Of a stretch of DNA of 33,409 nt, positions 16,219 through 28,204 are shown one piece after another. This stretch comes from Mucilaginibacter arboris (GTDB lineage: Bacteria; Bacteroidota; Bacteroidia; Sphingobacteriales; Sphingobacteriaceae): contig NZ_WPIK01000024.1 in assembly GCF_009754915.1 (NCBI RefSeq), positions 1 through 33,409 of the forward strand. The letters are read 5' to 3'. Both the position numbers and the translations under genes were made by a program. The notes below the pieces were generated by a model. That model was given only the letters and a program-made list of their open reading frames with translations, did not search any database and was not told where the DNA came from. Each line of letters opens with the position of its first letter. The stretch's first letter is position 1.

Positions 16219-17196
16219 TTATGGATTGGAAACTGCACCTGATCCATCTTCTGTTGGGGGAACGCCTACCACTTTAAAAATCCGGCTGTTTCCAGAATTA
16301 TCTTCCTGGTAATACACACCATCAGGAGAAACAAAAAGCTTTTCGCCATTAATTCTTACAGCACGGCTATCTGGCGGGATAGAATTTACCACATCGCCAA
16401 CCCGCGGCAAACTAACCGGATTTTGATTGTTATCGGTATTGTTATTATAGTTGTTATTATTATTATTGTTGTTGTAAGCATGCTGTTGCTCTTGCTGCTG
16501 GTCTTCAGGTTGTTGTACGCCACTATCGGTATTTAAAACACCATCTTTTCCAGCCACTCGATATACTTTTTTGCCGTCTTCGTTTATAACAGGCTGATAG
16601 TAAATACCGTCTTTTTCAAAATATTGCTGTCCGTCAATCACAATTTCCTGTGCACCTCTTGGTAAACGCGGTACTTCGGCACCAACTGGCGGGGCTACAA
16701 CCTGGTAGCCATCATTATAGGGTTGATAAAACAAGCCTTCGTTGTAATAATAAGGGTAACCACCAAAATAAAACGGATAATAACCGAACGGCAGAATGTT
16801 TAAGTAGAAACCAATGTGCGGATAATAGCTGCGGTAATAAGCGCCGTAACCAACACCGTAATACGGGCGGCCATAATATCCGCCACGGTAGCCATAACTT
16901 CCTCTTATACTTACACCACCATGGATTCCAACGTAAGCTCTTCCGGGTGCAAAGTGCGGGCCAACAGCAACACGGTTGCCTCCGCCAAAACCACCACGAG
17001 GCGCAGCACTAATCCTGGCACCGCCGCCAAAACCACCATGAGGCGCAGCGCTGATCCTGCCACCGCCACTTCTGCCACCACCACCAAAACCTCTGCCACC
17101 TCGTTGTGCTTCGGCAGTAGAAAAGGAAGCTAAAATAACTAAACTTGCTACCAGCAGTTGCTTTGCAAATTTAAGTGCAGGATTTATCTTTTTCAC
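16219..17196 (-). CDS. Secreted Gly/Asn-rich protein, DUF6515-like
   Basis: 325 residues with a signal peptide ending around ASFSTAEAQ. The N-terminal third is a Gly/Arg-rich low-complexity region with repeated ISAAPRGGFGGG units, followed by a Tyr/Gly-rich stretch. Two copies of a module of about 45 residues follow (LPRGAQEIVIDGQQYFEKDG and IPPDSRAVRINGEKLFVSPDG), separated by a Gln- and Asn-rich linker made of AAC/AAT codons. The modules resemble the DUF6515 family, whose function is unknown; a cell-surface or matrix role is a guess. The start is a GTG at 17196 (MKKINPALKFAKQ), the only choice that yields a proper signal peptide. Confidence 0.82.
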   Translation of the reverse strand: MKKINPALKFAKQLLVASLVILASFSTAEAQRGGRGFGGGGRSGGGRISAAPHGGFGGGARISAAPRGGFGGGNRVAVGPHFAPGRAYVGIHGGVSIRGSYGYRGGYYGRPYYGVGYGAYYRSYYPHIGFYLNILPFGYYPFYFGGYPYYYNEGLFYQPYNDGYQVVAPPVGAEVPRLPRGAQEIVIDGQQYFEKDGIYYQPVINEDGKKVYRVAGKDGVLNTDSGVQQPEDQQQEQQHAYNNNNNNNNYNNNTDNNQNPVSLPRVGDVVNSIPPDSRAVRINGEKLFVSPDGVYYQEDNSGNSRIFKVVGVPPTEDGSGAVSNP

Positions 17197-24355: not shown

Positions 24356-24364
24356 AATTAATTC

Positions 24365-24592
24365 TTAACTTTTTTCTGCAAAGTATTGCACATATAAATC
24401 TTCCACTTTTTTTCTGGCCCAGGGCGTTTTCCGCAAAAAGGTAAGGCTTGATTTAATGCTTGGGTTATCTGTAAAACAATTGATGCGGATGCGCTGTCCA
24501 AGTTCTTCCCAACCAAAATAATCAACCAGTTCTTTCACAATAGTTTCTAAAGTTTTACCATGAAGTGGATTGTTAGCTTGTGGATGTGTCAT
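24365..24592 (-). CDS. VF530 family (DUF2132) protein
   Basis: 75 residues, cytoplasmic. Almost the whole protein follows what I know of the VF530 family: [26 protein letters not shown], then [25 protein letters not shown]. The family is described as small, helical and DNA-binding; its cellular role is not known. It has its own promoter candidate and is transcribed towards the helicase-like gene. The ATG at 24592 is the only sensible start. Confidence 0.93.
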
Positions 24593-24679: not shown

Positions 24680-25189
24680 ATGAAAACAGGAACAGCATTA
24701 ATTGGAGGACTGGCAGGTGCAGTAACACTCAACCTTATTCACGAAGCTTACCGGCAGATAGATAAAGACGCACCGCATATCCATATAATCGGGGAAGAAG
24801 CTTTAGTAAAAGTGCTAAAAGAAGCCAAACTGCCCAAACCTCATACCCAAAAGCAACTGTATTTGTGGACGCTTACCGGCGATGTGATCAGCAATGCCTT
24901 GTACTATAGTTTAATTGGCGCAGGAAAAAGAAAAAATTTATTAAAGCGCGGTTTGGCTTTTGGTTTAGCTGCCGGGCTTGGTGCTGTTTTTATGCCATCA
25001 AAAATGAGTTTAGCTGATGCACCCAGCGCGCGTACCACAGAAACAAAATTGTTAACCGTATTGTGGTACACTTTAGGTGGATTGGCTGCCGCCAGTGTTA
25101 TTAAGGTTTTGAGGAAGAAAAAAAGTTATGCTATAAAAAGTGTTTTTCACGCCAAGCCGGATTTGTATAAGCATACGGCCCAATTGTAA
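24680..25189 (+). CDS. Hypothetical membrane-associated protein
   Basis: 169 residues, function not recognised. An N-terminal hydrophobic segment (TALIGGLAGAVTLNLIHEAY) is followed by a polar stretch with HIHIIGEEALVKVLKEA. A second hydrophobic segment (LAFGLAAGLGAVFMP) and a third (LLTVLWYTLGGLAAASVIKVL) lead to a basic C-terminus. It resembles a common Bacteroidota hypothetical protein whose name I cannot recall. It is probably in the inner membrane. TAACTTTA lies just upstream of the ATG as a weak -7 candidate. The last base of its TAA stop is the first base of a short-repeat copy. Confidence 0.8.
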   Translation: MKTGTALIGGLAGAVTLNLIHEAYRQIDKDAPHIHIIGEEALVKVLKEAKLPKPHTQKQLYLWTLTGDVISNALYYSLIGAGKRKNLLKRGLAFGLAAGLGAVFMPSKMSLADAPSARTTETKLLTVLWYTLGGLAAASVIKVLRKKKSYAIKSVFHAKPDLYKHTAQL

Positions 25190-25278: not shown

Positions 25279-26457
25279 TTACAGCAGCAAAATATCGATT
25301 TGGTGGGCATGTACCATTTCTTCCTGCGGAGACCAGGCAAAAATAGTAAACCGGCCATCCTGCGAAGCAACCAAAGCAACAGCATCGCGCTGGTCGAATA
25401 CAAATTGCGCTGCCGAAAGATGCCTTGTTCCGCCTAACTTTGCCGGGTGCGTTACACTTGCGGTGCTGCCAATAATGGGTTCTGTAATCACGATCTGATC
25501 TACCCGCTTGCTTTTCCAGGATCGGCCAATTTTGGCACCAAAAGCGAGCAGTTCGTGCCGGTCGTTAATAATGGTTGCACCATCCACGGCAGTTAATCCG
25601 CCAACACTATCTACAGCCTGGCGGAGCAGGCTTTGCCACAGCACTTTGTTTGTTTCCTGATCGCTGATCTGGGTAATATCTGCCAAACCCGTAAATGCCG
25701 ACAAAACAGGGTAGGTGATGGGATGAATGATAGAGTCTCGCCAATCCTGCGTATCAGCAGGGACCACCAATAAAGCACCGCCGCGTCCATGTGCGCGCAT
25801 AGAAGCAGCAAGCTGTACCAGAATATTGGCCGAGTCGTTTCCATTGTATGGGGATGTAAAACCTAATAAAGAACTGATAATGGGCGGCCGGTCGGGCGCA
25901 TTATGGTTTTTTTCGTCCACAACTTTTATCTGGTCGCCTTTAAGGGTAGCAACGTTCACAAATTTGCCAATGCCGTCAATACGCCGGTGTTTAACAACCA
26001 GCAGGCCCGGTTCTACCACTTCCAGTACAAAACACAAACCCGGAATATCACGGGTAGTCCCCCAGATGTACAATTCGCCTTCTTCCATCCAAACACCTAA
26101 ATGGATACCCGGCCGTTCTACCGCAGGTGCAAGTTTGGTTAATACTGCTGTTTGCAGGGCTAATGGATATTTAAAAACCATTGGTAAACCTGCCATCTCC
26201 GGAGGTAAAAATGCTAAGGATATTTTAGGCGAGCGGCCTTCCTCGCGGCCTAAACTCGACCAAAAGGCCACATCGATTATGCCTTCAATTACAGCAGCCA
26301 CAGGTTCGGGCGCAAGCTCCTGAACGCCCTTTAAACGGGCAGCAGCAAAATGCTGTTTAAAATGATACTCTACCACAGCAGCAACTTTGCGTGCAGCCTG
26401 ATAAGTGGGTTCAGGAATATGGGTCTGGTAAGTGCTGTTCGTTGGTTCGTAATTCAT
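25279..26457 (-). CDS. DACNV-type sensor protein with a diadenylate-cyclase-like domain
   Basis: About 392 residues from the ATG at 26457; the frame extends to a TTG at 26490 that adds a poor N-terminus. There is no signal peptide or membrane helix. The C-terminal part (about 225-385) resembles the DisA_N diadenylate cyclase domain: a core strand in HGRGGALLVVP, the DGA motif at 292-294 and GTRHLSAA with RHL at 345-347 where active cyclases have RHR. The N-terminal half matches the DACNV sensor type described beside such domains in Bacteroidota. The likely role is synthesis or sensing of c-di-AMP, but the RHR-to-RHL change and a longer DGA-to-RH spacing leave activity open. It stands alone, convergent with the membrane protein gene. 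Confidence 0.8.
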   Translation of the reverse strand: MNYEPTNSTYQTHIPEPTYQAARKVAAVVEYHFKQHFAAARLKGVQELAPEPVAAVIEGIIDVAFWSSLGREEGRSPKISLAFLPPEMAGLPMVFKYPLALQTAVLTKLAPAVERPGIHLGVWMEEGELYIWGTTRDIPGLCFVLEVVEPGLLVVKHRRIDGIGKFVNVATLKGDQIKVVDEKNHNAPDRPPIISSLLGFTSPYNGNDSANILVQLAASMRAHGRGGALLVVPADTQDWRDSIIHPITYPVLSAFTGLADITQISDQETNKVLWQSLLRQAVDSVGGLTAVDGATIINDRHELLAFGAKIGRSWKSKRVDQIVITEPIIGSTASVTHPAKLGGTRHLSAAQFVFDQRDAVALVASQDGRFTIFAWSPQEEMVHAHQIDILLL

Positions 26458-26556
26458 TAAGCGCAATAGCTGCAACAGGTTAAGTATCAAAACTAATCTA
26501 AATTGGCTGGGTGCGCAAATACATTCTGTCAGTTTAATGTTGTTTATTTAAAATGC

Positions 26557-26660: not shown

Positions 26661-26685
26661 TATTTTAGACAGATAAAAGAAGCAT
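26661..26685 (-). repeat. Short dispersed repeat overlapping a start codon
   Basis: Exact core TAAAAGAAGCAT at 26674-26685 preceded by ATTTTAGACAGA. The final AT is the first two bases of the ATG of the GH3-like gene, so the AAAAGAAG of the repeat lies where a ribosome-binding site would be. Confidence 0.78.
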
Positions 26686-28204
26686 GGCTATAATAGGTGA
26701 ACTGATCAAATCAGCAATAGAATTAACCGATAAATTAGTAAAAGAGCCGGACGCGGTAGAGGCACAACACAAGGTACTCGAAAACCTGCTGACTACAGCC
26801 AGAAACACAGAATTTGGCAAGCATTACGATTTCGAAAGCATTTTAAACAGCCCGGATATAGCCAAAGCTTTTGCAGAAACAGTCCCGGTGTTTGATTACG
26901 ACCGTTTGAACAAAGAGTGGTGGCATTTGGTGGTAGAAGGAAAGGAAGATATTACCTGGCCCGGAAATACGGATTATCTGGCTTTAAGCAGCGGCACCAC
27001 CAGCCACAGCAAACAAATCCCGGTAACGGACGATATGCTTTCGGCTATCCAAAAAGCAGGGATGCAACAAGTTGCCGCACTGGCTAATTTCGATCTGCCG
27101 CCATCTTTCTTTGAAAAACAAATCCTGATGCTGGGCAGCAGTACGGATTTGAAAGAAATTAACGGACATTTGGCAGGAGAGATCAGCGGGATCAGTGCCA
27201 GCAGGATCCCGTTCTGGTTCCGTGGTTATTACAAACCAGGAAAAGATATTGCCAACCTGACTGATTTTGATGCACGGATCAAAGAAATAGCCATACAAGC
27301 TCCAAATTGGGATATCGGCAGTTTATCCGGCATTCCGGCATGGATGGAACTGATGCTGAAAGAAGTGATCAGCCATAACAAACTCAACAACATTCACGAC
27401 ATCTGGCCAAACCTGGGCGTTTATACTTCCGGCGGCGTTGCCTTCGATCCTTACAAAAAAAGCTTTGAAAAACTGCTGGCACATCCTTTAATTTATATTG
27501 ATACTTACCTCGCTTCCGAAGGTTTTCTGGCGATGCAAAAGCGCCCGGAAACTTCATCTATGGCTCTGGTGGTCGATAACGGGATTTATTTTGAGTTTGT
27601 TCCTTTTGAAGAAAAGAACATGACAGAAGAAGGGACCGTTGCCGAAGACGCAGAAGTGATCAAGCTTGCCGATGTAGAAGAAAATAAAGATTATGTGCTG
27701 CTGATCTCCACCGTTTCTGGTGCCTGGCGCTATATGATCGGCGATACGGTGATGTTTACGGATAAAAGCAGGCACGAGATCAGGATCAGCGGACGGACAA
27801 AACATTACTCCAATGTTGTTGGCGAGCAGCTCTCGGTAATACAAATGAACGCTGCCATACAGGAAATGGAAAAGCAGTTTAATGTTTGTATCCAGGAGTT
27901 TATTGCCGCTACTGTTCACCGCGGCGAAGAATTTATACAGAAATGGTATTTAAGCGCTGATAAAGAACTTGATAAAACCCAGGTAGCAAAAGCATTGGAT
28001 AAAACTTTACGCGATAACAACAAGAACTACAATGTTGCCAGAACACGTGCTTTAAAAGATGTAGAAGCAGAATTGATCCCTGCGGAAACTTTTTACAAAT
28101 GGAGCGAGGAAAATAAAAAGCGCGGTGGACAGGTGAAAATACCGCGCGTAATGAAAGAAGAACAGTTTTTAGAGTTTGAAGATTTTGTAAAGAAACATCT
28201 CTGA
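26684..28204 (+). CDS. GH3 (auxin-responsive) family acyl-adenylating protein
   Basis: 506 residues of the GH3 family in the ANL adenylating superfamily, cytoplasmic. The ATP/phosphate motif is SSGTTSHSKQIPV, followed by the A5-like segment YLASEGF and the hinge region YMIGDTVMF ... ISGRTKHYSNVVGEQLS. Plant members join amino acids to jasmonate or auxin. The substrate of the bacterial homologues, which are common in Bacteroidota, is not established. An amide- or thioester-forming acyl-adenylate reaction is the reasonable general expectation. The start codon lies inside a repeat copy; the residues MAIIGELIKSAIEL give the usual family N-terminus. No partner gene is adjacent on the same strand. 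Confidence 0.92.
   Translation: MAIIGELIKSAIELTDKLVKEPDAVEAQHKVLENLLTTARNTEFGKHYDFESILNSPDIAKAFAETVPVFDYDRLNKEWWHLVVEGKEDITWPGNTDYLALSSGTTSHSKQIPVTDDMLSAIQKAGMQQVAALANFDLPPSFFEKQILMLGSSTDLKEINGHLAGEISGISASRIPFWFRGYYKPGKDIANLTDFDARIKEIAIQAPNWDIGSLSGIPAWMELMLKEVISHNKLNNIHDIWPNLGVYTSGGVAFDPYKKSFEKLLAHPLIYIDTYLASEGFLAMQKRPETSSMALVVDNGIYFEFVPFEEKNMTEEGTVAEDAEVIKLADVEENKDYVLLISTVSGAWRYMIGDTVMFTDKSRHEIRISGRTKHYSNVVGEQLSVIQMNAAIQEMEKQFNVCIQEFIAATVHRGEEFIQKWYLSADKELDKTQVAKALDKTLRDNNKNYNVARTRALKDVEAELIPAETFYKWSEENKKRGGQVKIPRVMKEEQFLEFEDFVKKHL

Follow-up and report, generated by a model that had tools for sequence, protein, structure and literature searches.

c-di-AMP enzymes are usually recognised by a DGA motif together with an RHR motif. 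What, then, is a protein that has the DGA but carries RHL at the place of RHR? Such a protein is encoded in the window analysed here, a 33,409-nucleotide stretch of Mucilaginibacter arboris DNA (contig NZ_WPIK01000024.1). The original prediction, made from the letters of the DNA, took it for a DACNV-type protein, either an active c-di-AMP synthase of an unusual subclass or a nucleotide-binding sensor. The gene and its features are collected in Table 1; a TTG at 26490 is a possible alternative start. Both predicted motifs of the DisA_N fold are present in the minus-strand ORF, the GTRH at residues 343-346 being directly followed by the predicted leucine, Leu347, and D292 lies 53 residues from R345, close to the spacing of about 50 that had been read off. 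Of the motifs of diadenylate cyclases (DACs) the protein thus has DGA, with RHL for RHR and ASQD for (V/I)SEE.

Table 1. Features of the DACNV-DAC gene and its product in the window.
Feature	Position	Strand	Remarks
DACNV-DAC protein gene, class A	25279..26457	(-)	392 aa from ATG (26457->25279)
Pfam DACNV domain	26053..26319	(-)	residues 47-135, E 1.5e-30
N-terminal domain, predicted DAC-like fold, apparently without RHR helix	25936..26388	(-)	residues 24-174; sequence tests negative
E72-E73	26239..26244	(-)	among the few N-terminal residues common to classes A and B
C-terminal DAC-fold domain (predicted)	25285..25896	(-)	residues 188-391
GALL, counterpart of GALI motif	25768..25779	(-)	residues 227-230; residue 228 varies
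DGA motif	25576..25584	(-)	residues 292-294
Inter-motif stretch, spacing about 20 residues longer than in CdaA	25435..25533	(-)	about residues 309-341; K309 and E326 are class A invariants
RHL replacing RHR	25417..25425	(-)	R345-H346-L347
SQD, counterpart of SEE motif	25357..25365	(-)	S365-Q366-D367

Membership in the DACNV family is secure. The DACNV model (PF21751, 'Probable sensor domain DACNV') gave 105.6 bits against a cut-off of 27, and like other proteins of the family the window protein has a DACNV domain followed by a DAC-like domain. The DAC/DisA_N model (PF02457) returned a sub-threshold piece at residues 340-368 (17.9 bits, cut-off 27), and an NCBIfam search of the 392-aa protein had no match at E up to 1.

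We compared the protein with its relatives. DACNV proteins occur in 40 of 100 whole genomes of near relatives (own genome included) and in 11 of 395 genomes of a phylum-wide sample; a scan of genome contigs confirmed at least 484 loci, of which the best 80 were used. ORFs were sorted into two classes, A and B, by profiles seeded from motif-chosen sets. Class A comprises 124 distinct proteins (the window protein, 30 near relatives, the best 80 of the at least 484 scan loci and 13 others) and class B 43 distinct ORFs, 42 of them readable at the site; 41-row class B comparisons leave out two ORFs shorter than 350 aa (L162 and the L175 fragment). As a CdaA-type reference we used 17 RHR-bearing proteins. 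Class A is found in Bacteroidota and in some Acidobacteriota. Within the family, 40 of 46 genomes of at least 3 Mb (own included) have a DACNV protein, against none of 15 genomes below that size, a group that includes incomplete ones. Proteins of both DACNV classes are also present in two Acidobacteria-labelled MAGs (loci L033 and L098) and in 12 of 199 genomes of the phylum of an Acidobacteria-labelled match.

The second arginine of RHR is replaced by a hydrophobic residue across the whole class A clade. The residue after RH is Leu in 108 of the 124 proteins, Phe in 12, Met in three and Val in one, and is never Arg; in the near-relative subset the arginine is absent from 31 of 31 proteins. 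In contrast, 42 of the 43 class B ORFs have RHR, the remaining one being a fragment without the site. The predicted departure from RHR is therefore real, though it is a trait of a clade and not a peculiarity of this gene. The long spacing fared similarly: it is 53 in all 124 class A proteins and 32 in 17 of 17 CdaA-type proteins, and residue numbers printed in the available text for CdaM (PMC13022847), B. subtilis CdaA (PMC8573169) and Mtb DacA (PMC3328451) give 31-33, but as a mark of an unusual protein it is shared by class B (49-52 in the 42 readable ORFs). Since class B combines the long spacing with RHR, the spacing and the leucine are separate changes.

In an unrooted tree of 124 class A and 41 class B proteins, built by a quick method and with many weak forks, each class lies on its own side of one branch with a support of 100. 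The unusual subclass that had been proposed thus exists as a class A set apart from the RHR-keeping class B. Counted over the whole tree, with the split between A and B, the Leu label takes nine changes, five of which well supported branches make unavoidable, and within class A residue 347 never changes to Arg. Because Leu, Phe, Met and Val replace one another there with no Arg, the position looks held hydrophobic; the window codon for L347, CTT, is one base from an Arg codon, and therefore the hydrophobic residue appears to have been selected. Since both CdaA proteins and class B have RHR, the simpler account, on a tree that is itself unrooted, is that class A lost the second arginine. Comparison with two same-genus copies gave dN/dS values of 0.133/1.84 and 0.167/2.07, with dN far below dS; because dS is near saturation, this comparison is qualitative only. 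Taken with the DACNV E value of 1.5e-30 and the invariant spacing in class A, it argues that the DGA/RHL combination is not due to chance.

At the family level nothing sets the window protein apart from other DACNV proteins; within the family it falls in the RHL class A, not in the RHR class B. Class B proteins (L119, L163 and others) have, besides the long spacing, the same SQD and E72-E73 and a DG[AVL] motif, and both halves match those of class A by profile (probability 99); they differ in keeping RHR and in being longer, about 440 aa. Class B is patchy: of 301 family genomes, 34 have a match to L119, and these fall in two of 25 genera. In four of the 34 (G904, locus L175; G810, locus L191; G876; G856) the listed rows contain stop codons or a split copy. 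No stop codon was found in 40 class A near-relative rows, and class B therefore looks more dispensable than class A. Class B stands beside class A in genomes G014, G050, G060, G510 and G671, where its proteins are ready controls.

Does the changed motif still leave a nucleotide site? In the ATP site of L. monocytogenes CdaA, the available text lists side chains of L31, D71, T102, R103, H104, S122 and E124 and main-chain contacts of L88, G101 and E123, and the second arginine of RHR is absent from the list as given in that text (PMC7288161). The same source describes the GALI motif, on which our assignment of GALL as its counterpart is based (PMC7288161). In class A, D292, G293, G343, R345, H346, S365, Q366 and D367 are identical in 124 of 124 proteins, as is the complete DGA; in class B all these positions, including the G343 counterpart, are identical in 41 of 41, with the D and G of DGA kept. 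Residue 344 is Thr in 120 and Ser in four class A proteins (Thr 34, Met four, Ala three in class B), and residue 229 is Leu in 107 and Val in 17 (mostly Ile in class B). In the SQD of the window protein the Mg-binding Glu is changed to Asp and the adjacent Glu to Gln. The alignment shows, then, that the listed ATP-ligand positions of CdaA are kept or conservatively changed, the counterpart of main-chain Leu88 being left unmapped.

We left Leu88 unmapped because two ways of placing it disagree. K309, which is invariant in class A (124 of 124) and Val (29), Glu (9) or Met (3) in class B, presumably falls on Leu88 if residues are counted without gaps from D292 along the CdaA sequence. A profile alignment of the C-terminal half with CdaA, in contrast, puts the extra residues directly after the DGA strand and E326-P327 near the Leu88 place. 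For this reason we do not rely on K309 as a substitute for the lost arginine.

The fold of the C-terminal half, as predicted, is well supported as that of a DAC. A full-length AlphaFold2 model was built from 27 sequences (26 of 30 relatives and the window protein; mean pLDDT 81). With VIA-align, residues 186-391 of this model matched DisA (T. maritima 3c1y and 4yxm, Mtb 9y4s and 9y9y) at Z 14.0-13.2, with rmsd 2.3-2.5 over 133-139 residues; the best match was 9y9y (Z 14.0, rmsd 2.4, 134 aligned). Next came 2fb5, the B. cereus CdaS entry according to the available text of PMC8573169 (Z 11.5), and CdaA/DacA and CdaM structures (Z 11.1-9.7), whereas the best non-DAC row had Z 3.8; rows for fructose-bisphosphatase, on the N-terminal half, had Z 3.8. 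The first 44 Foldseek rows for the full-length model were DAC structures, with E no better than 7e-4. The comparison with DisA and CdaA that the original prediction had called for thus yielded a predicted DAC fold, and the outcome named there as refuting, a structure prediction lacking this fold, did not occur. Profiles gave a mixed picture: when the C-half profile of both classes was aligned to the 17 CdaA proteins, p was 6.6e-6 and the probability 84.8, while a column-reversed control reached 0.5. The probability was 78.9 for class B and 3.5 for class A alone, and with motif-chosen cuts it was 0.0 for A and 0.1 for B. A search of PDB sequences with the 27-sequence family profile gave four weak matches, no DAC among them.

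Architecture separates the protein from both known types. Its DAC domain, with RHL, ends the chain, whereas that of DisA is N-terminal and precedes a linker; the 53-residue spacing compares with 33 for the DisA of Mtb. Pfam matched nothing resembling the DNA-binding part of DisA, which is of the HhH kind (PMC3328451, available text). From CdaA/DacA it differs in RHL, in SQD for SEE and in about 20 extra residues between the motifs, and no CdaA_N membrane domain was matched in Pfam at E up to 1.

The search for other DAC genes that had been recommended found one canonical CdaA in the same genome (E 1.7e-39, with DAC and CdaA_N domains). The window protein is therefore neither the sole DAC of its organism nor the housekeeping synthase. 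Sixteen further genomes with a class A protein were tested for an over-threshold DAC, and all 16 have one, always with RHR at spacing 32. A family search of the genome also found a protein with a 7TMR-HDED domain, the mark of PgpH-type phosphodiesterases; it is PgpH-like as judged by this domain. With CdaA and this protein, both supply and removal of c-di-AMP are likely.

We favour, at a probability of about 0.4, the reading that the genome has, beside CdaA, a second DAC-type protein which is soluble, conserved and stand-alone, and which may be a diadenylate cyclase active under certain conditions or a nucleotidyl-transfer enzyme closely related to one. The invariance of the DGA Asp and of the phosphate ligands speaks for an enzyme. 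The C-terminal domain would bind ATP or another adenine nucleotide via D292, T344, R345, H346, S365 and D367 and would carry out such a reaction; the changed residue 347 would re-pack helix alpha4 or the facing-domain interface, with no substrate contact removed, and the N-terminal DAC-like domain, having no phosphate-binding helix, would be a pairing or regulatory half. Counted against a cyclase are the Mg-binding Glu changed to Asp and its neighbour to Gln, the PF02457 score below cut-off, the class A profile that alone does not match CdaA, and RHR-to-AAA mutants, in which c-di-AMP synthesis is abolished in Mtb DacA (PMC3328451), B. thuringiensis CdaS (PMC4568413) and M. bovis CdaM (PMC13022847). 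According to the available text of these papers, however, the mutants change all three RHR residues as a block, not the second arginine alone (PMC3328451, PMC4568413, PMC13022847).

With a canonical cyclase already present, a new one is not required, and a catalytically dead DAC is almost as probable, if short of an even bet. Its site would bind ATP or CdaA-made c-di-AMP, and the signal would pass via the N-terminal domain, by analogy with degenerate GGDEF domains, which the available text of PMC7288161 names as c-di-GMP receptors. The loss from all of class A of an arginine that class B keeps, beside a CdaA in its own genome and RHR-type DACs in the 16 others, favours such a sensor, as do the change of SEE to SQD and the likely supply and removal of the ligand. 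Yet in class A the DGA Asp and the phosphate-binding side chains on the CdaA list show no change or only a conservative one, class B has the identical SQD and retains RHR, and the window protein has no output domain. We know of no degenerate-DAC receptor. Either way, class A, spread over two phyla with its ATP-binding side chains kept and the second arginine never, is a natural test of the role of that arginine.

The DACNV domain may itself be related to the DAC fold. A model of the N-terminal domain alone (residues 13-196; pLDDT 89), built from 70 sequences (61 of class A, being 60 of 71 representatives and the window protein, and nine of 19 class B representatives), gave 39 first VIA-align entries that are all DAC domains (Z 8.3-6.3; next row 2.9), only Foldseek's own candidates having been compared. 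The top match was 2fb5 (Z 8.3, rmsd 3.2 over 101), and on DisA 3c1y the aligned range, 7-146, is the same DAC domain as that covered by the C-terminal half (7-147). In the models the order of elements (helix, strand, strand, helix, six strands) is much like that of the C-terminal half, without the RHR-bearing helix. A Z near 8 is modest and can reflect a common arrangement of elements, and Foldseek alone gave E 0.31 for CdaM. Tests of sequence homology were negative: hhalign probabilities did not exceed 0.6 for five N/C pairings, or 0.2 when three N-half profiles were aligned to CdaA, an ungapped profile scan of the N-half against the C-half gave p 0.18-0.89 in six settings, and the one match of the N-profile among PDB sequences was not a DAC. 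We nevertheless consider a DAC-like fold of this domain likely on the models.

Four N-terminal residues, S68, E72, E73 and G133, are common to all class A and all aligned class B proteins, E72-E73 being found in 124 of 124 and 40 of 41, with one gap; speculatively, they would fit a contribution of the N-half to a shared site. It is conceivable, though we think it unlikely, that DACNV is a degenerate DAC domain that has lost the RHR helix. The chains would then be tandem pseudo-DAC/DAC proteins whose dead and live halves face each other much as the two halves of class III adenylyl cyclases do. Their nucleotide site would be one-sided, with the N-half, perhaps through E72-E73, supplying part of it, and class A, from which the second arginine has gone as well, would be an asymmetric cyclase or the first ATP/c-di-AMP receptor derived from a DAC. 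If DACNV does have a DAC fold, its 'sensor' annotation would have to change, and a cyclase architecture built from two such folds would emerge.

The name DACNV reportedly comes from Burroughs 2015. Our literature search, which did not reach this presumed naming paper, found no paper for the name; sister names and phrases gave only papers unrelated by title, and queries for a tandem, degenerate, inactive or DAC-like diadenylate cyclase brought up only a Chlamydia paper. The available text of PMC9259658 describes c-di-AMP signalling in Bacteroidetes as largely unknown.

That the protein has a DAC fold but acts on a different substrate, forms a different product or has quite another role (another nucleotide, a hydrolase, a scaffold) is rather improbable: K309, H223, E326, Q351, T371 and W375 are invariant in class A and not common to class B, which would suit such a role, but at the positions for ribose and phosphate it has the residues of a DAC.

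The gene stands by itself: on one side a 169-aa ORF that has no Pfam match (24680-25189) is convergent with it, and on the other a GH3-family gene (26684-28204) is divergent. We compared the neighbours (ORFs of at least 90 aa, flanks of up to 8-9 kb, some ending at contig ends) of the window gene and 80 relatives, the best 80 of at least 484. Every neighbour family was limited to 14 or fewer of the 81 stretches, and each of the 13 commonest was almost wholly confined to a single genus, either Dyadobacter or Mucilaginibacter. The window locus had one family in common with only two other stretches. A decaying gene or an anti-phage component is very improbable: one motif residue is lost and DAC-related domains are said to have been linked to conflict systems by Burroughs 2015, but the low dN and the 40 class A rows free of stops rule out a recent pseudogene, and a defence cassette is disfavoured by the lack of a neighbour widely shared across genera and of any match in plasmids, phages or viral contigs, and by a PADLOC 2023 search that gave no family at E up to 1 for the window protein or for two proteins of class B.

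Three further ORFs deserve mention. An 18th over-threshold DAC match, left out of the CdaA-type reference because it has no RHR, is a 590-aa DAC-like ORF in a Pedobacter hiemivivus genome (L137, 1228-2997, minus strand; PF02457 E 5e-12); it has DGALLL and SEDG, and with GARYNSA at the expected RHR place it is another departure from RHR. In the window, a 75-aa ORF at 24364-24592 (minus strand) resembles small VF530-type DNA-binding proteins, and 16219-17196 (minus strand) encodes a protein that is rich in Gly and Tyr and matches DUF6515 (E 2.7e-21).
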